Shown: positions 12,035 to 56,800 of the stretch, one piece after another
How positions within the stretch are numbered: position 1 is the first letter of the stretch
Layout: the number at the start of each line of letters is the position of its first letter
Assembly: GCA_963681505.1 (NCBI GenBank)
Contig: OY811971.1
Coordinates: 7,538,924 to 7,602,923 of the forward strand
Direction: 5' to 3'
From: Eunapius fragilis
Lineage: Eukaryota > Porifera > Demospongiae > Spongillida > Spongillidae
Length of the DNA: 64,000 nt
Notes under the pieces: model-generated
Databases searched by the model: none
The model's input: the letters and a program-made list of their open reading frames with translations, nothing else
What the model was told of the DNA's origin: nothing
Program-made: the position numbers and the translations under genes

Positions 12035-12536
12035 GATTTAAAAAGGCAAATAATAAACATTTTTACTTCATTGGATTTTACAGTCCTCTTTACCTTTTTA
12101 CTTTCTTGTTCAGCATTACAGCACATATCTAAGCATATGATTTAAGGATGCATTTTCATCTTATCACTCTATATATATGACCCCTCACTTAATTGTAACT
12201 TCAAATCTGTTGTTTCTTCCTGAGGATTGTCCTTTGAGCATCCATCTAATTATGTATCATCTTAAGTACAAGGCTGCATTTTAAAACACTTAATCATTAT
12301 TTGTATACACTCACCAGATGCAATGGTGCATGACCTTTCTGTAGCTTTGGATTAATCCTTTGACAACGTTCACACGAACTGATCTGGGTGTTGAAGAATA
12401 TCATCTACAGGCATGCTTTAACCATGATTGGAACTTACGTATGAGCACACTTGATTACACTAGTCTCGTACCCAGACCCTCAATCCCACAGCTGCGGATG
12501 GATTACATCACCGCTACGTGGAAAGAGGGTTCTGAC

Positions 12537-13322
12537 TAGGCCTGTCGAAAAAATTCCACCGGAATTTCGGAAATTTTAGGCAGTTTCTAATTTCACAAAA
12601 TGCCAGCATTTTCCAATTATATACACATCGCATACTACCGACAACGGGTCAGTAAACCACAAAAACTAACAGTATGCAGAAATATACGGTTTTTCACTAA
12701 TATGGCGATCAACGAGGTCCCATCGTCCTAATTGGCCAGAAAAAGGTAATCAAAGATGGCTAGACCCAAGGTCACTGTAGCAGCAGCACTGGCGGACGGA
12801 GGGGGGGGGTTGGGGGGGTTGCAACCCCCCCTTTCCTCCTATTACATAATACGCAAAATGCGGCATAAGTAACAAAAACTCGTAATGTTTCATGCATTTT
12901 AGCACACCGAATTAACGTTTTCAAAAGCTTCCGCGCTTCGCGCGGGAGGGGGCACATCCCCCTCCCGCACCCTCCCCCTTTTAGTGATCCCCCTCCACTA
13001 CAACCCCCCCTTTCTTTAAATCCTGCGTCCGCCACTGAGCAGGCATCGCTAACGTGGCTGCTTTGTTGTCGTCTTTTGCAATCCAGCAGCGTACGGGTGT
13101 TGCACTCGAATCGTCGTACTTAGTTGTTGGGTCTTCTCCACTTCCAATTTGTGTGCCTGGCCTTTCCTCTTCTTCTGCCGCCTCTTTGTGCGTTGGACTA
13201 TCGTGACGGTTAAAAAGATAACCGGCATTTTTTGGTGGAATTTGGAAATTTTACGGAGCATTTTTTGCAATTACGGTCGGAATTTTTGAGAATTTTTGTG
13301 TGGCATTTTTTCGACAGGCCTA
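12537..13322. mobile_element. Nested hAT element
   Basis: Ends TAGGCCTGTCGAAAAAATT and its complement (TTTTTTCGACAGGCCTA) are flanked by the 8-bp duplication GTTCTGAC (12529-12536 and 13323-13330), which fits the hAT nTnnnnAn pattern. It sits at the inner edge of the left TIR of the larger transposon. A second small inverted-repeat element (about 12788-13038, ends near CTGGCGGACG and CGTCCGCCACTG, flanked by AGCAG) is nested inside it. No complete transposase. Confidence 0.8.
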
Positions 13323-13339
13323 GTTCTGACTTGTTTTGA

Positions 13340-14356
13340 ATGTTTATGCAATTATTGTGTCGTCATAAGTGTCGTCATCGTGTAATTAATCACTGCAAAG
13401 TCTGTTCGGTGTCTGTGTCGAACTGCTCGCAAAGACGACAATTGGGAAGGCATACGCAGGACTCTAGTCTTTGTACCGCGCAGCTTAGGGTCAAGACGGA
13501 GCGCACACAGCAGCTCTCTCCCCTTGCTCTTCAGACCCTTTCCCGGCCTGTTGCTCGCCGAGCTTTCCAAGAGATCGATACTCTAATAAACGCCCACCAT
13601 GTCCAGAGGGCCGCGGACCTGTCCCACAGCCTCATAGCCCTGTGCAAAGAGGGCATGAGGTACTACCACACCTACCACAGGCTGCCCTTCAAGGTTGCTG
13701 TGACGGCAGGCTTCGTGGGTTGGCTGGCGTGTGTGCTTGTGGCCATCCCCAGGAAAAAGTTCTTGGACAAGATTCCTGCCCAAGATCTTGACCAACTTGC
13801 CCAAGATCTTGTCCAACTTGCCAAGATTATGCCGGCCAAGTTTTGGCCAAGATCTTACCCAAGATATGGCAAGATCTCAGCCTCCTGGCAAGATCTTGGC
13901 CTCCTGCCAAGATCTTGCTCTTCTTGGCAAGAATCTTTCCCAAGAACTTTTTGCTGGGTCTTGGAGGAGAAGTGGCCCGGTTTATGTAGGAGGGTGGGAG
14001 CTAACAGTGGAGGGGTGGGTAACTGTAGCCCTAAGATGGTGCTAGTTCAGGTAGCCACAGTGGTGGCCATTGTTATGGTTGTTTGGTACCACCAATCCTC
14101 CCCCATCCAGTATTACTGGTACTACGCGCTGTCTCTCGTCTGTTGGTCCTATGTGTGGGTGCGGAGGTCCGCGTTCCGTGCCGCCAGGCAAGGGATGGCA
14201 ACCAATCGCGTGCTGCTTTTGAAGGGGACAGTGCACCTGGTGGGTGTGGTGGTGGGCTTGGAGGCCCTTGTCATGAGCTTCTTCTATCGGGAGGTGCTCT
14301 CTGCTGTCCTTGTGGTTGTCTCCATCTTGCAGTCAGTCTTTGGGATGCACGAATAA
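13340..14356 (+). pseudogene. Captured fragment of GPI ethanolamine phosphate transferase 1 (PIGN) membrane domain
   Basis: One uninterrupted 338-codon frame. Residues about 95-135 (EGMRYYHTYHR, FVGWLACVLV) and about 235-335 (IQYYWYYAL, LEALVMSFFYRE) match my recollection of the polytopic C-terminal PigN domain of GPI ethanolamine phosphate transferase 1, an ER membrane enzyme of GPI-anchor synthesis. The N-terminal catalytic domain is absent, so no transferase activity is expected. Residues about 140-225 do not look like PIGN and cover a CAAGATCTTG-rich array (13775-13950), probably a retained intron. The frame sits within transposon ends, so it is a captured gene piece, not the resident gene. 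Confidence 0.7.
13775..13950. repeat. Palindromic CAAGATCTTG array
   Basis: Several close repeats of CAAGATCTTG or GCCAAGATCTTG, a self-complementary 10-mer, inside the captured PIGN fragment. A shorter version is present at 19226-19370 in the second copy. Confidence 0.8.
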
Positions 14357-14589
14357 CAATGGCGTCTAGCGATTCCCCCGACATTCTAATCGCTGCTTGA
14401 CTCATTATGCAATTACAATGTTGCGACCGTGACGTCAGACCGTGCTGCAATCTGATTGGTCCTCCGAAATCGAGTAAAGTCAGAACCAAAATGTTCGATC
14501 TATGCGCCAGACCCTCTTTCCACGTAGCGGTGATGTAATCCACCCGCAGCTGTGGGATTGAGGGTCTGGGTACGAGACTATGATTACAC

Positions 14590-16418: not shown

Positions 16419-19400
16419 GTAAGCTCATTCAGTGCATGCATGAATGGAAATTACTACAGCTATGAGCCTAGCATGTACAGTGTTGAGCATGCCGATTAGT
16501 CATAACAAAAGTGTGATACACATTATAAATAGTCCATTACAATTCGATTGACTGGGCTTCCATTTCTCGTCATCCTTCATGTGCTGCTGACGGATTTGTA
16601 TTCAGTATTGCCAAAATGATAACAATCTCATCGTAACAACCAGGTTCATGTAAAATTATATATAGCATGGCTGGCGCGATATATCTACGATATTGCGATA
16701 TCATAGACTTCTACATATCGCTTGCGGCAGCGAGGATTATTAATTCTCACTCGGGGCTTTTGATTCATAGAAGGTCGCACAATCAGATAATTAATGCAAG
16801 CTGATATAGGATGCCAATCATTAACTAGTCTGCACACATGTTCATACGGTTCATATACATGCAAAGTCTGCCACTGCCACTGCCAAAGACATACACGAAA
16901 GCAACTCAATGAGCTTATAGTGAAAATTGTGCATGATATAGTTGGACGAAAAAAATTGACATCGATTTAATGTTTACTTGAATTTATAACAATAACCACA
17001 TATGGTATTGAAAGTCTAACTGCACAGATGCACAGGCTAAACACTTGTTATCATGTTTGAAAAAAGTTGTGCCATCAGTGACTATCATGTTCTACGACTT
17101 TCGTTTTCAGTGACCCTAGTCTTGTCAACTGATTTTGCTGTATTTCTTCACTCGGGGATAGCGGATCAGGACGAGTATTGGGATGTTGCTTATAAGCACC
17201 AACCCATAAGTCATTTGGCCGAGCTAGATTCTGTACCGTTCGCGTATTTATGACGTAGCTTTCAAGGAATAAAAGTGTTAGGCTTTTTTTTTTTCGAAGC
17301 GGTCGCGATCGGTTCATGCCAAAAGAAGCACCATATTGTTCCGAACGATGATTATTAGTGCATCGTTTGGGTCCTTTTTTTACAATGTAACAGCTCATTT
17401 TTCTGATTGGCAAACATCAGGCTTATAAAATGCACCATGCATTTCCAGGTGAATTTCGTTAAAAAACGATGCTGTTATAACCAGTTATGGTAGAAAAGTG
17501 GGCGGTACATGTAGTAAAAAGCAGTTCTTTTCAGAACCAAGCATCATCCAGCAGCAATCAACAGAGGAGAGCAAGCAAAGGAGCAGATCGTACCTGGGCA
17601 TAGCTGCAGCAGACAAAAGCTCCGAGGGGTACCCCCAGTGCTGGTGCTTCTGCATGGTGGTCGTCATCGAGCGACGCTAAAAAGCATTGCAGGAGAATCA
17701 GCAGTACTATTTGTGAGAGTGCAGCAAAGGAATTGGATTCTCTTGCCGCGCATTTTGCCAGAAGTGGTTGTGATGAATGACACTGATGCATTACACGTGC
17801 ATGCATGCTTTGAGTGAGATGGATAATCGGTGGGACATTCCAAAGGCAGACAATATAATGGTCCATGAAATATATTTCATGACATAAAGCATGCATGTCC
17901 ATGCATTGTGCCGCATACCATCGAGTGGCCTAGATGAGCGGTTCGTGTAGACAATAACAAAGTTCTCAAGTTTCAAGGAAAGATGCAAATGCCACGTTAA
18001 GCCAATGAATGGGGTAGTTTATACTTCGTTACAGACATGCAAGGCAAGAAACTATACGAATGCGGAGCTAAGGTCGAACGTTACGGTCCAGGTATACATG
18101 CATGTAACTACAATGGCATTAAATGGCATACATCAACATCGACAGTGGATCAACTTGTGTAACTTCTTCTCTTCTATATAGAGACTCGTCACAACCGCTA
18201 ACAATCAATTTGGTAAAGCCTCTGCATGTAGGTATGGAACATGAAGTGGCTGAAAGTAGACCATAGTCTTTGTACCGCGCAGCTTAGGGTCAAGACGGAG
18301 CGCACACAAAACAGCTCTCTCCCCATACTCTTCAGACCATTTCCCGGGCATTTGCCCGCCGAGCTTTCAAATAGGATGGCCGAGATTGATACTCTAATAA
18401 ACGCCCACCATGTCCAGAGGGCCGTGGCAGTGCCGTCGAGAGGGGGGGGGGGGGGGGGGGGGGGGGGTAAGGGGGTACACTACCCCGGGCCCCGCGGCAC
18501 AAAGGGGCCCCGCGATCCCTAAGAATAATTTTTTTTTCCAATTGTGTGCGACGACCCTTTCGTGTTCGATCGAGCACTGAATCTTTCACTCACTGCCACA
18601 GTTTAGTCTGTACTGACTGCACAATCCTGACGCAAATGGGATCGTAGTAGAGTATTTATAATATTTTAATGATAAATAGAATTCCGGCAAGGTCTGAACA
18701 ATCTCTGATAGTTTAGGGGCGGATACAGGGGGAGGGGGGGGGGGGGGGATTTGGGGGTTGCAACCCCCCCTTAATGTCCAAAATCCTTTTTTTTTGCACG
18801 CAGTTTTAGGGGTTTTGGAGGTTGCAACCCCCTCTTTTATCCTTTTTTCGCACGTAGTTGTACGCGGACAGCACCCCCCCCCCCCCCCCGCTCGTTGAAC
18901 CGGCCGAAAATGGATATCACCCCCCCCCCCCCCCCCCCCGCTCGTCTTATTATTCATTAACAACCCCCCCTTTTCTGAAATCCTGTATCCGCCCCTATTA
19001 GTTTCAGCCTACAGGGTCAGAGGGGCCCCAGTGAGCGTCCTTCCCCGGGCCCCAACCTGGCTCTCAACGGGCCTGTCACCGTGGACCTGTCCCGCAGGCT
19101 CATAGCTCTGTGCAAAGAGGGCATGAGTACTACCACAGGCTGCCCCTCAAGGTTGCCGTGACGGCAGGCTTCGTGGGTTGGCTGGCGTGTGTGCTTATGG
19201 CCATCCCCAGCAAAAAGTTCTTGGACAAGATTCCTGCCCAAGATCTTGCCCAACTTGCCAAGATTATGCCGGCCAAGTTTTGGCCAACATCTTACTCAAG
19301 ATATGGCAAGATCTCAGCCTCCTGCCAAGATCTTGCTCTTCATGGCAAGAATCTTGCCCAAGAACTTTATTGCTAAGTCTGGGAGGAGACGTTGCCTCCT

Positions 19401-22400
19401 TCTTGTAGGAAGGTGGGAGCTAACAGTGGAGGGGTGGAGTACTGCAACCCTAAGATGGTGCTAGTAGCCACAGTGGTGGCCATTGTTATGGTTCTTTGGT
19501 ACCGATCCACCCCCATCCAGTATTACTGGTACTACTCGCTGCCTCTCGTCTGTTGGTCCTATGTGTGGGTGCGGAGGTCCGCCGCCTGGCAAAGGATGGC
19601 AACGAATCGCGTGCTACTTTTGAAGGGGACAGTGCACCTGGTGGGTGTGGTGGTGGGTTTGGAGGCCCTTGTCATGAGCTTCTTCTATCGGGAGGTGCTC
19701 TCTGCTGTCCTTGTGGTTGTCTCCATCTTGCAGTCAGTCTTTGAGATGCACGAATAATAATGGCGTCTAGCGATTCCCCCGAGTTAGTCCCCGACATTCT
19801 AATCGCTGCTTGACTCAGTATTGCTATGGGATGCAATTACAATGTTGCGACCGTGACGTCAGACCGTGCTGCAATCTGATTGGTCCTCCGAAATCGAGGA
19901 AAGTCAGAACCAAAATGCTTTGCACGTAGTGTAATCCACTCGCAGCTGTGGGATTGAGGGTCTGGGTACGAGACAACTTTTGCACGGTACACTGGTTTGT
20001 TTCCAGACGTTCGGCCATGACGTTCTAAATATCATACGTTCTAAATATCATACATGTACATGTCTCGATTGGCTGCTTTTCATATGCGTGGAGCGGTGTT
20101 CATGAGGTGTCTAGCTGGCACTGCTCAGTACTTATTGAATTGTATAATGAGGGCGAACAATGGATTATTAACTGCCAATTGTGGCGGATGGGTATGATAC
20201 ATGTTTAAGGCATTTTGTACCAGCAAGCTGCGGGATGGACAAACTATTCATTTTCATTTTTATCTCAGTAAACTTAAATCTTACTTCTCCCATTCTGACT
20301 ATGGTAGCGGTGTAACAAATATCTACGTGTTTTTCGGTGAAAAGAAAACAATCCGCCGCCATTGAATCATTGGTTTGGCGTAATATTGGCATGCACATCG
20401 TCCCTGTGGATACTATCTTTGATGTTTTAATGATTTAAAGTTGGCATAAGTAACTGATGAGCAATAAAACTGGCTATACTAGTATTAGACTTGAGAAACT
20501 GTGATTTATCGTGTCATTATTAAGAAAGGACAAACCTGGAAAAACCTAGGTAATCGTTGGGCATTAATATATACTATAAACCTGAAAAATCGATTGGACT
20601 TTTTTTCGTAGTCGAAATAATCGATTTTGATTTATGAAAAGTTTACATGCCCATTCTATAGCTATAGCTATGAGTTGATTTGCGAATTTGTTGGCCTGAA
20701 CGCTGCTACACCATCTCTTAACCTTCTTATACTATGAGTACCATATGTGACAAGTAAATAAAAACATTCTCTACGAGAAAGTTGGTGGGATATAAGATTT
20801 GATTATGACATTGGTGGTGTAAAAAGCAAGGAAACAAGGTCTTATCAGAAGGGAAAATGTCATAGTCCTATATTTAGCACATTTCTAGGGCATGTGTTGT
20901 TTGTGTGCTAAATATAGGACTATGACATTTTCCCTTCTGATAAGACCTTGTTTCCTTGCTTTTTACACCACCAATGTCATAATCAAATCCTATATCCCAC
21001 CAACTTTCTCGTAGAGAATGTTTTTATTTACTTGTTTTCTTAATTTTTTTCATACCCAAGTAACCCAATGACTGTTGTATGGCTGCTTCTCCCTTTTCAT
21101 TTCTTACAATCCATAATTAAATTATACAAGACATAGGAGGCTGATAGTCGATTGTTTATCAAAGTATTATATTATATAAAAGCGAGTCCTCCAGCCGATT
21201 CTGAAGCTACTGGTGAAATTTTCATCGCTTAGAAATGTTCCTGTCCTGAGTTATGCGTTGCCAAGAAGATGGAGGAGAAGAAGAAGAAGACGACCCGCCC
21301 CTTGTTCCGAGACTGGGTACGAGGACGGGCAGTACACTCTTGTTCTCAACAACCACGCGGTTCAGCGACATGAAACAAAAACGAAACTACTCATTTTTGA
21401 CTTCTAGATCGATTGCTAAAACAAGCTACACGATCCGATCGTCACGTCGGGAGTGTTGTTACAGACGGGTCGCGTTTTTTTAATGACATTCATAGTCGTG
21501 GTCAAATCCTATATCGGAAGTTTCGTCGTACTCATAGTATAGAAGAAATTGTTGCCACTGTAACGAATCAATATAGGTTCCTGCTCCACACCCAGGGGCG
21601 GATCCAGGATTTTTGAAAGGGGGGGGGGGGGCTTATTATAAAAAAGTTGTATTCTAAATCTGTGCATGGGGCACTAATTAAATAAATTAACACGACTTGC
21701 CATCCTCTCTGTAATCCAGTGAGTTGCTTTTTTCAGCTTACCCCGAAGCAAAACATAACCAGCAGAGCATCGAATTCCTCAAATAGTGATATTTATAAAT
21801 TCATACGTCTTGAAGGAGACAATGAAATCAGTGCAGTAAAGCATGCTAGTTGTAGTAATTGGTTAACAATAGAACATGCAAGTGGAGCATGCGCAGTGAG
21901 ATGGCAGAATCCGGTAGAACCAGTTTGGGGCATTCTTAAGGCCTAACATTGAAGTAAAGAGTCAGTCTAGACTGGAGAACAATACGAGTCATTGAACTAC
22001 GACCTGTCATTGAACTACGTATGGTGTGATATTGTGTTCGTTGTATTTGTGTTAATTGCTGCCTAAGTAATAATAGTGTGTACCAATTGACCTGTCAGTA
22101 TCAGCTGTTAGGTACTACATTTTGGCGACGAGGGAAAGTAATGGCTCTGTCGGACCGTTTGAAAGGGACACCGACGACTGGACAGCGTACTGTGAGCGGT
22201 TGTAACAGTACTTCGTGGAGAACGAGATAAAAGATGACGGAAAGAAGAGAGCAGTATTGCTGAGCACATGTGGCACTGCCTCTTACCAGCTCATACGCAG
22301 CCTTGTAGCCCCAAGCAAGCCGACAGATAAGTCTGTGGATGAAATTATGAAGTTGGTTAAAGACCATTAGACTCCGCAGCCTTCCAGCATTGTACAGAGG

Positions 22401-39445: not shown

Positions 39446-39680
39446 ACCTGTTCTTGTGTTCAACTTCACCAACTCTGTCTCTGCGCTTCGCCTAGTCTCG
39501 TACCCAGACCCAGATTCCCAACAGCTGCGGATGGATTACATCACCGCTACCTGGAAAGTGGGTCTGGTGTCCTCCTGTACAAATTTCTGTCCAGCTCCCC
39601 CGGAATATTGGGGCGACCAATCAGATTTAAGATATGCATTAATTGCATAATACTCTAGTTATCAATCGAAGTTATTGGTT

Positions 39681-39890
39681 ATGGCGGCAAGGCTAGAGAT
39701 GGATGATGTACAGGTTATACGTGCGATTCAGACGGCAGGTGAACGTATGGGGTATGCCAAAGTTAAGGGCGAACAGTTACGAGTCATCTAAGACGTGGTC
39801 CGTGGTCGGGACACGTTCGTAAGCTTACCAACAGGATAAGGGAAGTCTCTTGTTACGGCTTTCTGGCTACTATGGGTATAAATTTGAGCT
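39681..39890 (+). pseudogene. Captured RecQ-like helicase fragment
   Basis: From an ATG the frame reads GYAKVKGEQLRVI, a stop, then VVRGRDTFVSLPTG, a second stop, then GKSLVTAFWLL. FxxPLxxEQLxAI followed by GRDxxVxLPTGxGKS is the start of RecQ-family helicases, including the Walker A loop. One stop falls inside Walker A and the frame ends soon after, before the DEAH box. It lies between transposon TIRs, so it is a captured, dead piece of a helicase gene. Confidence 0.65.
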
Positions 39891-40376
39891 ATCGGTTCGA
39901 GAGGTACGAAGCAAGTCCCTCACAATCGCGCCAAAAAGTCAAGAGCGAGAAACTTTGCCACAGCCGATCCTCAACTTCGGAGAGCAGCTCAAGCAGCTCG
40001 TAGTCTGAGTCCAGCGACTCCGACGCATGTAAGAAGTTCAAGCCGCGCGAGAGGACCCACCACTCCAGGTCGCAGGAGAGCAGCTTCCTCAACGCCCCCT
40101 TCTGCCTTCACTACCATGTCCCTACCCCCTCGAGGCACGAAGTCAAGAGGGGTTAGCATGCCCACTTTGAAAACTTCCCTCTCCCATAGACGATCCTTCC
40201 TCACTCCCCGTTTGACTGAGAAAAGGTTGATGGAGTGCTTGATTCCTTGGCAGAGTGGTCAGGTTAAATTTGTGACAGAAGGCGTAGTACTTCCTCATCC
40301 CTCCCCTGTATAGGTGGTGGACGTTGAAGGGGCCACAGCTCTGTGGAGGTGGTGTCTCAGGCAACCTTTTAGAGGT

Positions 40377-40673
40377 CTACCAGCTCTTGTGGCACTGGTG
40401 TGGGCAGTTGCCTCTGAACCAGGCCCCATCCAAGTAGGCCCCAAAACCACAGGTGTAAGATGGATAAGGTGGTGGAGCCTCCTCAAAATCTGCATTCAAA
40501 ATGGTTCCAATCCAGGCCTCTGAATGGGAACTCCGTTCAGAGGCCTGGATTGGAACCATTCTGAATGCAGATTTTAGGTCTACCTTGGCCATCATGGCTC
40601 CTTTTTCAAATCTGCTAAGGAGCCCCACCACATTGTCAATTGTGGAGTAATGGACAGTGAAATTAGGTTGCAT
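40377..40673 (-). pseudogene. DIRS-type RT and RNase H-like fragment with foldback junction
   Basis: Minus-strand frame: HYSTIDNVVGLLSRF, AKVDLKSAFRMVPI (reverse transcriptase motif with the first catalytic Asp), then an abrupt switch to GFGAYLDGAWFRG, which resembles an RNase H-like start as found in DIRS elements. The switch lies at a hairpin: about 40 bp at 40495-40535 are repeated inverted at 40536-40580. So the piece is rearranged and inactive. Confidence 0.55.
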
Positions 40674-41225
40674 GCAGTGAAAGGAAAATGAGGTCCGTTG
40701 TAGCCGGTGGACACACCGCCAGGAGATGCAGGTCTTGTCAGGATGATCTTTCAGTTGCTGGAGCTCACGTAGTCTCAGACAAGTGGGCAGGCCTTGGCGG
40801 GGTACTTCTCACCGCAGCCTGTGACACAGCACTTGTGTATAAAAGAATGCAGCATAGCTTACATTTACCTTGTCTGGAGTAGCTTCGCTTGTGAGAGATG
40901 ATTCAAAACGCTGGCGTTTAGGATCAGGTGTATCTAAGGCTAAGTGCACTGATAATCGCTCCCTGACTAGGGGACGATAGAAAGGAAATGTACACAGCTT
41001 GCGTTTCTAATTAAAGCATTAACACACTAATTGCATTCTTGCGGAAGATAATATTATTCATACATGACGTAACTGCATTCCTCCCGACGTTGGAATGTAA
41101 GTATTATGTAATCGCTGGACAGAAATTTGTACAGGAGGACACCAGACCCACTTTCCACCTAGCGGTGATGTAATCCATCCGCAGCTGTTGGGAATCTGGG
41201 TCTGGGTACGAGACTACGCTTCGCC

Positions 41226-46067: not shown

Positions 46068-49000
46068 CTATAAGGAAAGGTCAATAACTTCATATGTCCA
46101 ACAAGGCCTTGTCCCCTCTTGTACCAATTCCACATCCCATTTTCCTACTTTGAGACCTACATGCATGTTCAGTACATGTGTGGTGACATATAAGTACATG
46201 TGTGGTGACATATAAGTACATGTGTGGTGACATATAAGTACATGTGTGGTGACATATAAGTATGGTCAGTACATGTGTGGTGACATATAAGTATGGTCAG
46301 TACATGTGTGGTGACATATAAGAATGGTCAGTACATGTGTGGTGACATATGAGTACATGTGTGATGACATATAAGTATGGTCAGTACATGTGTGGTGACA
46401 TATAAGTATGGTCAGTACATGTGTGGTGACACATAAGTATAGTCAGTACATGTGTGGTGACATATTAATATGGTCAGTACATATGTGGTGACATACATGT
46501 ATAAGTATGGTCAGTACATGTGTGGTGACGTGAGGTGGGTGACGTGACATGTTTGAGTGCTATTATTATACTAACCTTCCAAATGTGGCACAGCTTGTCC
46601 TACCAGCTCTGACAATAGCTGGGAAGAAGAGGAGGTGACCACAGAAGTAGACACTGCAAGACAAAGGAGAGGTTACCACATGTAGCCACACCTACCAATA
46701 GCCTCACCTCCAACAAGGTATGGGAGACATGGCTCTATCTTCATCCATTCTCCAATCACCACTTGCTTCTTACGACTGACATCAGCAATAGTCTGTTCTG
46801 ATTTTAGAAGGGCCTTCTTTAATAAGGACAGCTCCACCTTAGTGCCATCAGAGTCATCTGAGATGGCTTCAGGAGGACAGGAGATTACCTCTAACACCTC
46901 TACATGTGGACAGAACTCCTGATATGCCTTCTTGATGAATGCAAGAACAGAGTGTGCTAATTGTAGGTACTTGGGGTCTGTCCTGACAGAGGAGGACATA
47001 GCCATGGAGATAGACTGGAATGTATCACTCATCTCAACAATGGTGGCCACCCCTTCCTCACTAAGCCACTTTAGGCCCCTGCTCCACACATCACAGCAAC
47101 GTTGGATGTGTGGGTGGAGAGGTGTGGCCTGTACTGTGGGCAAAGCAAATTCAAAGGGCAGTCTGCGAAGAAGGACATGAAGAAATCGTGGAGTGAGGAA
47201 CTGGTAGAGAGACCTGACTATCATGGACCAACCAAAACTGTTACTGGGAACTACAGCACCACTTGGCTTCTCAACACATACTAGAGCTGGGAAGAAGAAG
47301 TAAGGACCAAAGTCAGGGCTGAGTGAGCCTTTGGGTACCATGTTTGTATCTACTAGGGATAGGTCCACCTCCTGACATAACTCAAAGTGAATCATAAACT
47401 GAGTTATCATATCAACATTGTACTCTGGAAATGTCTTCTCAAGTATTGCTCTGGATATTATCCCAGTATTGCTAGCTATGTGGGCATATTCCTTAAGAGA
47501 GGGATCTGCAAACAAAGCTCCATTGACCCTCTTTAGGATGGTATCTTTGCGAAGGACTATCCAGCTATTCAAGTGATGTGTAGCTGGAATATAGGAAATC
47601 AAACCTTTTTCTGATAAGGTCCGTAAATGTGAAATAATGCCGAAGATATCAGAACCAATGAGGTTATCCTTATCAGCCTTAATACGTTCATGAAGGTCAG
47701 AGAGGGTTATGGCGTCAATATTAGGAGACAATCTCTCCATTAGAAAGGCAAGTATCATGTGACACATCATGGAAATAGATGGACACATACTTAAGACCTC
47801 CTTGTTTGTTTCATGCAGCAGGCTCATAAATTGATCCATCTCATCCCCGTACATCTTTTTAAGGTTCAGGGATACGACCTTCACTAGATTTTGATGAACA
47901 ATGGCTGTCTTAGCAACCGACTGTAGATGGTTCAGTTTTCTGGCCCTTTCCTGAAGTGTTAGCAGGTCTCCGTGTGTGCCCACTAAAATTGCTGATGACC
48001 GCATGCAACACTTGTGACACACACTATCCATCATTGTAGACCAGTAGTAGAGCTCCTTGGTGATGGCCTCAGAGTCCTTTCTCAGGTCCTGCAGGAGAAG
48101 GAAGATGGCTGGACTGTTGAGTGAGATGGCCTCCAGACATGCAGAGTGGCTGGAGAAGTATTGATGATGTCCTGCCAGGTCGTAGATAACCATATTGCTG
48201 TAGGGACTGTCAACTTGATGGGGAATGATCCCAGCAGTGAGTGGTTCTACCACATCTTGCTGTCCAAAGACACGCTAAAGATATCATGGTTGAAATTATA
48301 TCGTGCAATGAAAAACATTGGTTCTTTTCAATGCATCAATGAATGAAGCAAACCTAAATTCAGCACATCTACTGTATGTTATCTATATGGGATATTTAAT
48401 CATTTCATATCTCCACTTTTACCCCCAATTATTAATTTGTTTTTTGGTTTAAAAAACATACTGTAACTTAGTGATATTCACAGTTAATGTATAAAATAGT
48501 TAGCCTCTCAAAGCTGACAGTGTTAGTTCAGGGGTTCTTTTCACAGCGCTGTCGATATACAACTATATAGTCAGAGGATTTGAAACCTTGCCAGTTAACA
48601 TTTCAGGACAGTAGTTATCATACCCTAGCACTTCATTTCGGCCTAGCATAGACCCTCATTTGGAGATGAAGAATTTGGATACGCAGCCACGACCAAGCAA
48701 TAATGACATCAGGAGGCTATGTACATGTAAAAAGCTCATCTTGAGCCTTACTATTTATTTGTATGTACAGATCTATTCTGAATACTTTATGGCAACCTTG
48801 CTGAAGCTGTTCTTCAATGTAATAATGACCTCCTGTAAACTGTGAATTTGCAGCCAATGGTAACATTACATTGAAGGAAATAGTAACATACATGAAGTTA
48901 AAACCAGTTAGTTTATCTTACTAAAACTGGACTGAATGACAAATAATGTGCACATTTAGGATTTGCAAATCATGATCAATAAAAGCTCACTATGAAGCTA

Positions 49001-53800: not shown

Positions 53801-56800
53801 AAAGTCCTGCTATCGATCCCCCCCCCCCCCGTCAAATGTCCTGGCTACGGGCATGCACTCATAGTCTAATTCACTGTATTCTATCCTTGCATATTTTTAT
53901 TAGAATGGGTTTGCCCAAGATCATTACAACAGACAATGGCACTGAATTCAAAAACGAATTAAACAAGCACCTTATGGATCTCCTAGGTATAGATCACCGG
54001 CTGACAACAGCGTACCATCCACAGGTCTGTAATTTGTCTGCATTCATTTTTTCCATGCTACAATAAATTATTGCGTATGTTAAAAAGTAGTGAAGCCATT
54101 TTTGAAGTTAAATCCAATTATTACTTAAAGCAATGAGAAGAAATGTTTAAGGAACAACACTGTAGATTTTATATTTTGTTGTCTCAATACCTAAAAGGAA
54201 GACAGACCGTTTCCATATTTAATAAAGGTTAATGGACTCGTATAAATTTAAATGATTGGTAGAATACCATTAAAATTATGCTTTTATCCAATGCCAACTT
54301 TGCATTCATTTTATAGGCCAATGGTCTTGTTGAAAGACTTAATCAGACCTTGCAAAATATGATTGTCAAATTTTGCAACGTGAAGAAAACCAATTGGGAT
54401 GATGTTCTGAATACCTGTGTTTTTGCATACAACACTTCTTGCCACGAAAGCACACTTTATATGCCATTTGAGATTATGTTTGGGAGAAAGGCAATTCTAC
54501 CAATTGATTTCCAAATGCATGTAGACATAGCAGAGAAAGTTGAGGAACCTTTTAACCCAAATGCTTCTGACATAGAACGAATTACTGATGAAAGAATAAA
54601 GGTACTGAAACAAGCGAAAGCAAATATTCAATTGGCACAAAAGAAGCAGAAGCTAGAATATGACCGGAAACATGCTAACCCAAAAGCCTATGAATTAGGT
54701 GCAAAAGTCCTAAAAAAGGATTTCAAAAGGAAAAAAAGGAGAGGAGGAAAATTGGACTACAAGTATGTGGGCCCATTTACTATAACAAAGTGTCTTGGAA
54801 AAGGTTTGTACTCACTTCAGTCAATTGAAAACCCAGATGTAGTCATCAAGAGCGTAAATGGTGTCCACATCAAACCATATCTTACCCCACACAGTACTTT
54901 TAGTACACATTCAAGCTCAAACTCATCCAGTTACACACCACCAGTAGATAAATCAGTTCTTCATAAGACTGAGGTTGTACTTTCCAGTGGTGATTCATTC
55001 CACAAGAGAGGTGACTCATCAGCAAGTAGTCCTACATCCAAGTCTCAGCACTCCAAAGAATCCGAGGCCACTCTCCAACATCTTAGTGCTAGCAAACAAC
55101 ATATGGAAGAGCATTATTATGCTGATAATCACTTAAGTAATGTTCAAGATGATGGCAATCCGCTTTATGCGTGGAAGTGTGTGACATATACATTAGAAGG
55201 CTGTAAAAGTGAAAGCTTAAATGTCTTTGATCATGAAAGTACTCAAATGGGTGACCTTGCATTTGTATTGGAGTCTTCCAAGCATATCACAGTACCTGAA
55301 TTGCCAAATCCCCATTGTGAGATGGTTACAAGTACTCCAACTTTAAGTGGAGGATATTTTACACCAATGGAAGATGGAAACTTATCTCCAATACCAGTTT
55401 GTAATGTGCTGAGCCACTATAAGGAGAGCTGTATTCAACCTGCACTTTCCACCACTGCCTCTATCCCAAACCCCACATCCTCCCCTGCTTGTCCATCACA
55501 GGTTCCTCAAACTAGCAGCTGTCCACAGAGAGATTTTCCAAAGAGTCCAAATTCACAAATGCAATTAAAAATTGCTATCACAAAGGATAAATGTCATTTG
55601 AAAAGCAAACACCATAAGAGCCACAGTGAAAAACGTGAAGTGATTCCTAGTGAAGAAAGTAAGTGATTATGATTGTATTCAATTTTATAAAAATTATTGC
55701 ATTTGTTTATTTCCACAGAACAAAAGAAATCTCAAGGGTTACAAGTTTGGATACCACAACTGAACCTACTAGCTGAAGACAACCAGGCCATTGAAGAAGG
55801 AAAATGGTTATCAGATCGTGTTATAAATGCTGCACAGGAACTACTGAAATCCATCAATACTTCCATTGGCGGGCTACAAAATGCCTTGTTGGCACAACAC
55901 TTGCAATTCACTATTGAAAGAGACAGGTTTGTACAAATTTTACATGTTTCGGGGAATCACTGGATAACAATAGCAAATAATGGATGCACAGGTGGAGAGA
56001 TAAAGGTTTATGATAGCATGGGACATTCAGATCTTCCAGAGGAGACTAAACAGCAAGTAGCTGCGTTGATTTTTACCTCAGTCAATAAGATCACACTGAC
56101 ATTTCAGACTGTTCAACGGCAACAAGATAGCAGCAGTTGTGGTTTATTAGCGGTTGCTTTTGCTACATCTCTTTGTTTTAGATCAGATCCATGTACCAAC
56201 CCTAAGGTCCCATCTTAAGCATTGTTTTGTATCAGGAATCATGGAGCCTTTCCCAGGCAAGGAAATAAAGGCTCGAAGGCCATATAGCCATGTACAATAT
56301 GATATATTTTGCAGTTGCAGGCTGACAAGAGGAAAGGAAAAGATGGCCAGATGCGACAATTGTCTGGAATGGTTCCACAAATCATGCGAAAAAATTCCTG
56401 GTTGTGTGTTCTCTAAGAGCCAGAAGTGGTTTTGCCACTCTTGTAACTCCTCAACATAAATGTATTTTTAATTCACCATTTATTGCATGCACATGCAGCA
56501 TGCATGCTTTTTGCTTATATATACATCATTCACTAACCATGTACTGTGCATGCACTATGTATTTATTCCATTCATGTATTATACGCTTACGTACATGTAC
56601 ATGTACAAGGCGCCGGCCTCTACTACAGTGTATGTACCCCAGATATTGTATAATTGAGCAATCAAGCCTGAAAAATTGCTAGGACAGGCTTTGCGTGTTG
56701 AACTCATTGGACGAAAAGCGGACCGTTTTTGGCAAGGTAGGACCATTTTTGGCGGACAGATATGGCCCGGGCGGACCACTTTTGGCGACCAAAATCAGTC

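Follow-up and report, generated by a model that had tools for sequence, protein, structure and literature searches.

A transposable element at positions 12461-14580 of a 64,000-nucleotide stretch from the sponge Eunapius fragilis (the window; contig OY811971.1, here C1, positions 7538924-7602923, in a source genome of 219 Mb in 24 contigs) carries a piece of the gene PIGN. The element is very probably a non-autonomous derivative of a cut-and-paste transposon encoding a DUF6589 protein and a RecQ helicase, in which the PIGN piece fills the middle that was lost. The original prediction had called it Pack-MULE-like, that is, a gene-carrying relative of Mutator-like elements (MULEs). Its description of a non-autonomous element with terminal inverted repeats (TIRs) and a moving PIGN fragment holds, but the superfamily assignment does not, as the partner elements encode DUF6589 and RecQ.

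The window element is 2,120 bp long, with inverted repeats of 70 nt that are 99% complementary, rather than the 68 bp first proposed, and the predicted 9-bp target-site duplication (TSD) is indeed exact. Matches to its 18-bp end with up to three mismatches number nine in the window, against 0.02 expected. Across the genome the exact end occurs in 997 + 947 copies, while the reversed control yielded 0 + 0.

The PIGN cargo and its spread

The 338-aa open reading frame of the element is, by its profile match, a fragment of PIGN: it matches PF04987 (PigN) with an E-value of 1.9e-23, above the curated cut-off, in two ordered stretches covering profile positions 1-34 and 56-156 of 456. This agrees with the earlier suggestion of a PIGN-like membrane-domain frame rather than a transposase. 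The only other family listed at E up to 1 was SLATT_6 (0.19), and among the families listed at that threshold none represents the N-terminal phosphoethanolamine transferase domain. PF04987 is also precomputed on 10 of 15 protein matches of the frame.

The PIGN piece moves as part of the element, since copies of the ends are numerous, cargo matches run to dozens, and 10 distinct exact 9-bp TSDs flank cargo-bearing loci. A DNA search with the cargo gave at least 97 matches (40 of 353 candidates scored), and among those listed, 17 cover query positions 3-1036 or more at 81-100% identity. When 30 cargo loci were cut out, an exact 9-bp TSD was found in 11, 10 of them distinct and one a run of C; one further locus has a TSD with a single mismatch, and the others lack an end or match more poorly. 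Thus both the movement of the cargo and the recurrence of ends and duplications in other copies, as the original prediction had anticipated, are borne out genome-wide. Over 39 distinct nearest end pairs from loci L001-L073, the flanks match at exactly 9 bp in 22, at 8 bp in two, and at 10 bp in four; within this set, ATGTCTTGT and ACAAGACAT, both from 133-bp copies, are reverse complements of each other and perhaps not independent, while CCCCCCCCC carries no information. Outside the nested repeat, the median pairwise identity of copies is 0.953 (29 of 33 copies, with more than 600 aligned positions). Rearranged versions appear to have been amplified in turn, because a 47-bp inversion is common to L041, L042, and L045, and L073, a derivative of 440 bp that still carries PIGN, is flanked by an exact TSD of its own and is 97.5% like L069 over 407 bp.

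A second copy in the window, proposed earlier at 18240-19974 as evidence of movement, does carry PIGN but is decayed and alone would not show movement. Its cargo lies at 18264-18427 and 19079-19854, separated by 651 bp of unrelated DNA (18428-19078). No left end was found in this locus (L058) at up to four mismatches, and the copy therefore has no TSD. As expected, no plasmid matched the element in a search.

The resident PIGN gene was not found: among the PF04987 loci, L065, L066, L068, and L069-L073 all contain cargo-like DNA, with 77-100% identity to the cargo in pieces, and no family end was seen within the 1.8 kb of L072. Of 78 PF04987 matches in the genome, few extend past profile position 165, and those that do have three or four internal stops. 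The nested miniature inverted-repeat transposable element (MITE) that interrupts the PIGN piece in the window is missing from L065, L066, and L068, which join at its edges; it was therefore inserted later or is missing in some lineages. We make no claim of selection on the PIGN frame, because variation at third codon positions (20 of 144 sites, versus 11 and 14 at the other two) is matched by a similar spread in upstream non-coding DNA (8/53, 4/54, and 5/53).

Full-length relatives encoding DUF6589 and RecQ

In two short relatives, L005 and L026, a ZAD-like frame lies close to one end and a helicase-like start close to the opposite end. The DEAD family matched in L026 (E 1.2e-6) and, below the cut-off, in L029 (2.3e-4), with no match in L005. 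A genome search with the ZAD-like frame as query brought up L062, L063, and L064. These elements are about 5.3 kb long, have TIRs of 104-123 bp that are 97-98% alike, and differ from the window element in one or two of the first 18 end bases. Two of them are flanked by the exact 9-bp TSDs CCGCCTACG and TTCGTGGGG, and the third lies in a run of C. All three carry a ZAD-like first exon and DUF6589 exons on one strand and a RecQ helicase on the other. In L062 the DUF6589 exons match at E 1.1e-13, 2.1e-21, and 3.4e-07, and the helicase matches DEAD (4.6e-17), Helicase_C (2.4e-12), and, below the cut-off, RecQ_Zn_bind (1.4e-4); a long frame in L064 matches DUF6589 at 2.4e-36. The DUF6589 frame of L062 is interrupted by a stop codon, and in L063 some of the conserved end motif is gone. 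A longer element of 10,469 bp, L074/L075, has exact 18-bp ends, a TSD matching at eight of nine positions, and a helicase in which both Helicase_C (3.4e-15) and RecQ_Zn_bind (8.9e-6) exceed the cut-off; a P-type transposase piece (PF21787, E 2.6e-19) is nested within it at L074:7419-7931.

The autonomous relative with the same ends that was expected to encode a MULE transposase was thus found to encode DUF6589 and RecQ instead, and no MULE family is among the matches listed for the scanned frames of these partners. On C1 up to 7.58 Mb, an exact end lies within 3 kb of three of six DUF6589 loci and none of four MULE loci (background 0.05), and within 5 kb of three of six and one of four, respectively (background 0.09); among the three end-adjacent DUF6589 loci, L074 is the one that was read. 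The genome holds at least 116 DUF6589 matches (102 of 215 candidates scored), and 602 related proteins were found at E<=0.001, the named ones being from the freshwater sponge Ephydatia muelleri.

The DDE transposase of these elements is most likely DUF6589, judging from structural models in which a helical insertion sits in a probable RNase H fold, with P-element and hAT transposases nearest in shape. Foldseek gave no fold match for these models at E<=0.001, and no sequence counterpart was found in the PDB at E up to 5. The N-terminus is ZAD-like in the models (zf-AD E 0.078, below the cut-off). Pfam searches of five DUF6589 proteins at E up to 10 returned only DUF6589 and one weak DUF7685 match.

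PIGN-bearing copies retain the start of the transposase gene. The left part of L047, MNHCKVCSVSVSDCSQRRQL, is identical to the L064 transposase start MNRCKVCGLPVLSCKKRRRL at 11 of 20 positions (0 of 5000 shuffles as good), and the window copy, with I for M, at 10 of 20 (a score reached by none of 5000 shuffles or 2000 random window pieces); no significant likeness was found to the more distant L005 and L026 (1784 and 1124 of 2000 shuffles as good). Between the left end and the start codon there are 168 bp in L041 and L047, 137-157 bp in three other copies, and 169 bp in L064. On the other strand of the right part, MSGTNSGESLDAIIIRASQRL in L040 bears a weak likeness to the beginning of the L064 helicase (equalled in 3 of 5000 shuffles), as does the window copy (15 of 5000), with weaker results against E, L026, and L061 (119, 137, and 57 of 2000). 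This putative helicase start lies 188-210 bp from the right end in PIGN copies, versus 203 bp in L064. With the transposase start and the putative helicase start at similar distances from the ends, the PIGN piece occupies the place of almost all of the two genes. The transposase start continues in frame into PIGN in predicted proteins P0004 and P0005.

The following history would account for these elements. The full-length form has ends TAGTCTCG...CCAGACC and 9-bp target duplications, and its two genes converge: one, of several exons, encodes a protein that joins a ZAD-like zinc domain to DUF6589, and the other encodes a RecQ helicase. One ancestral copy would have lost its middle from just after the transposase start codon to just after the helicase start codon, and a piece of the PIGN gene would have filled the loss, most likely in faulty repair of an excision gap. 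The transposase, acting in trans, would then have amplified the PIGN element, which would have acquired nested insertions and further deletions. Gap repair after excision is the simplest capture mechanism, and the text consulted of PMC8277862 proposes a similar filling of gaps for single-copy Pack-TIRs of animals; we infer this step, as the resident PIGN gene was not found. Capture from a spliced, retrotransposed PIGN copy instead of genomic DNA is a rather doubtful alternative: L065, without the nested MITE, has one open frame that runs through PF04987 positions 7-101 uninterrupted by stops or introns, as such a copy might, but filler between two truncated element genes is the expected product of gap repair. 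Nor do we give any real weight to the idea that the frame encodes an unrelated transposon membrane protein resembling PIGN by chance. Element sequence and repeats do make up part of the frame, but the strength and ordered arrangement of the profile match, its precomputed assignment to most of the related proteins, and the finding that none of the 78 genomic PF04987 matches lies inside the fetched full-length elements all argue against it.

As to superfamily, we rejected the Pack-MULE label on the basis of the full-length relatives with the same ends. That a Mutator-like transposase encoded elsewhere moves the element is highly improbable: the 9-bp TSDs, fairly long TIRs, and gene cargo would suit it, and the genome has 46 PF10551 matches, but besides the gene content of the partners and the distances on C1, the one MULE locus examined of those 46 (L067, an 847-aa frame in 5.8 kb) lacks family ends, showing only two same-strand resemblances to the end at six mismatches. 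That the DUF6589 elements belong to the P superfamily as a divergent branch, which would make the PIGN element a "Pack-P", is somewhat unlikely. Both models (P0138 and P0155) match P-element transposase best in structure and, counted from the range ends, P E531 falls at conserved E692 of P0138 and one residue off E500 of P0155 (P residues from the available text of PMC7776569). Against this, the TSD is 9 bp rather than the 8 bp given for P there. The N-terminus is ZAD-like with no THAP family listed, no P-family match appeared for the five proteins at E up to 10 although a PF21787 protein in the same genome was readily found, and there is a RecQ partner gene; to our knowledge, the P superfamily has no helicase. 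More speculatively, though we would not put it at even chances, DUF6589 could be the transposase of an unrecognised, superfamily-level animal lineage defined by TAGTCTCG ends, a 9-bp TSD, and a ZAD-headed DDE enzyme resembling those of P, hAT, and RAG with its own RecQ; the helicase might promote copying of filler during gap repair, making host-gene pickup a built-in side effect and fusion frames begin at the transposase start codon.

Features of the window and other family members

Table 1. Features of the PIGN-carrying element and of related elements in the window
Feature	Position	Strand	Basis or remark
Left TSD copy, TGATTACAC	12452..12460	.	exact 9 bp
Left TIR, 70 nt, begins TAGTCTCGTACCCAGACC	12461..12530	+	arm comparison
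Nested hAT-like element, TIR TAGGCCTGTCGAAAAAAT, 8-bp TSD GTTCTGAC	12537..13322	.	ends and TSD
338-codon frame, in order: start of the transposase gene, first PIGN piece, nested repeat, second PIGN piece	13340..14356	+	
Transposase-gene remnant, first 20 codons	13385..13444	+	INHCKVCSVSVSNCSQRRQL here, MNHCKVC in other copies, MNRCKVCGLPVLSCKKRRRL in L064
PIGN piece, PF04987 profile positions 1-34	13649..13747	+	Pfam profile match
Nested MITE, 211 bp, TIR CCCAGSAAAAAGTTCTTGG, AAGATCTTG repeats, TSD TC	13748..13958	.	
PIGN piece, PF04987 profile positions 56-156	14045..14335	+	Pfam profile match
Probable remnant of the RecQ helicase gene's first codons, MSGESLDAIVIRASQRL	14334..14384	-	shuffle test vs L064
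Right TIR; TAGTCTCGTACCCAGACC end at 14580 (-)	14511..14580	-	arm comparison
Right TSD copy, TGATTACAC	14581..14589	.	exact 9 bp
Second PIGN-carrying copy, decayed	18264..19976	+	right end TTGTCTCGTACCCAGACC, left end lost
126-bp perfect palindrome with family ends, TSD ATTTCGTAA	37071..37196	.	
1,724-bp family member, TSD CGCTTCGCC	39493..41216	.	ends and TSD

The larger nested element is a later arrival foreign to the original element, and its hAT-like label is suggested by TSD length and ends. Pieces resembling the AAGATCTTG-rich MITE were seen by eye in predicted proteins P0012 and P0013.

Two further family members that the original prediction had not listed, the palindrome and the 1,724-bp copy, both have exact 9-bp TSDs; several 133-bp members also occur on C1. 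The 1,724-bp copy contains, from 39681 (+), the disrupted beginning of a RecQ-like helicase frame, a likeness seen by reading only, and a reverse-transcriptase-like piece (RVT_1 E 0.0056, below the cut-off). Reverse-transcriptase-like pieces are also present in family members or beside a family end in L001, L002, and L019. Three other frames that were scanned gave no RVT_1 match. The cargo may reach beyond PIGN.

A subfamily represented by L061:193-2270 has ends TAGTCTCGCAAGCCAGACG, an exact TSD TGCATTGCG, inverted arms that measure 119 nt with a few flanking bases counted in, and ZAD-like and RecQ-like frames, with no DUF6589 match among those listed. Elsewhere in the window, a 526-aa frame at 46673-48253 (-) resembles by reading part of a ROCO/COR-type protein, and adjacent integrase-like and ULP1-protease-like frames at 54350-56218 (+) perhaps belong to a Ginger- or retroelement-type transposon, also by reading.

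Relation to known gene-carrying transposons

These results offer a testable function for DUF6589, a Pfam family of unknown function, as a probable new branch of DDE transposases near P, hAT, and RAG1, and describe a DNA transposon whose gene cargo has dozens of matches within a single animal genome. They also caution that 9-bp duplications alone are insufficient for assignment to MULEs. The PIGN cargo serves as a marked filler, and its parent gene would reveal how animal transposons capture genes. The DUF6589/RecQ elements may form a lineage at superfamily level, and their gene-carrying derivative is striking.

Plant Pack-MULEs have 8-10-bp TSDs, long TIRs, and gene fragments. The window element shares these features, but its partner transposase is not that of a MULE. 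A literature search by title and the start of the abstract returned nothing linking DUF6589 to a transposon or describing an animal transposon with RecQ and 9-bp TSDs, and the term DUF6589 was not found in it, Repbase and Dfam being outside its scope; the portions consulted of PMC12730594 and PMC12477816 mention neither.

Gene-carrying TIR elements are already known in animals: according to the text consulted of Tan et al. 2021 (PMC8277862), 370 Pack-TIRs occur in 100 genomes, mostly hAT (208 of 370) and TcMariner (115), with no Pack-MULE identified in animal reference genomes; multicopy Pack-TIRs are ascribed there to transposition and single-copy ones to proposed gap filling, and the main text contains neither the word sponge nor the word Amphimedon. 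The window element has the features of a Pack-TIR, namely TIRs, a TSD, host-gene cargo, and no transposase of its own, the gene piece presumably being the host's own. Like the elements of that report it is an animal TIR transposon with a piece of a host gene, but here the transposon is of the DUF6589/RecQ type and dozens of cargo matches lie in one genome. The P superfamily, where the P element has an 8-bp TSD and a THAP domain (PMC7776569, in the text available), gives the DUF6589 models their best structural match and a like placement of the last acidic residue, but no sequence match. Pairing of a DDE transposon with a RecQ helicase, once on the opposite strand, is described for KolobokH and Kolobok-1_CCri in the text available of PMC9587614, which gives TTAA 4-bp TSDs for Kolobok and reports KolobokH from fungi only; the elements described here are alike in this pairing, but they have 9-bp, non-TTAA TSDs and encode DUF6589.
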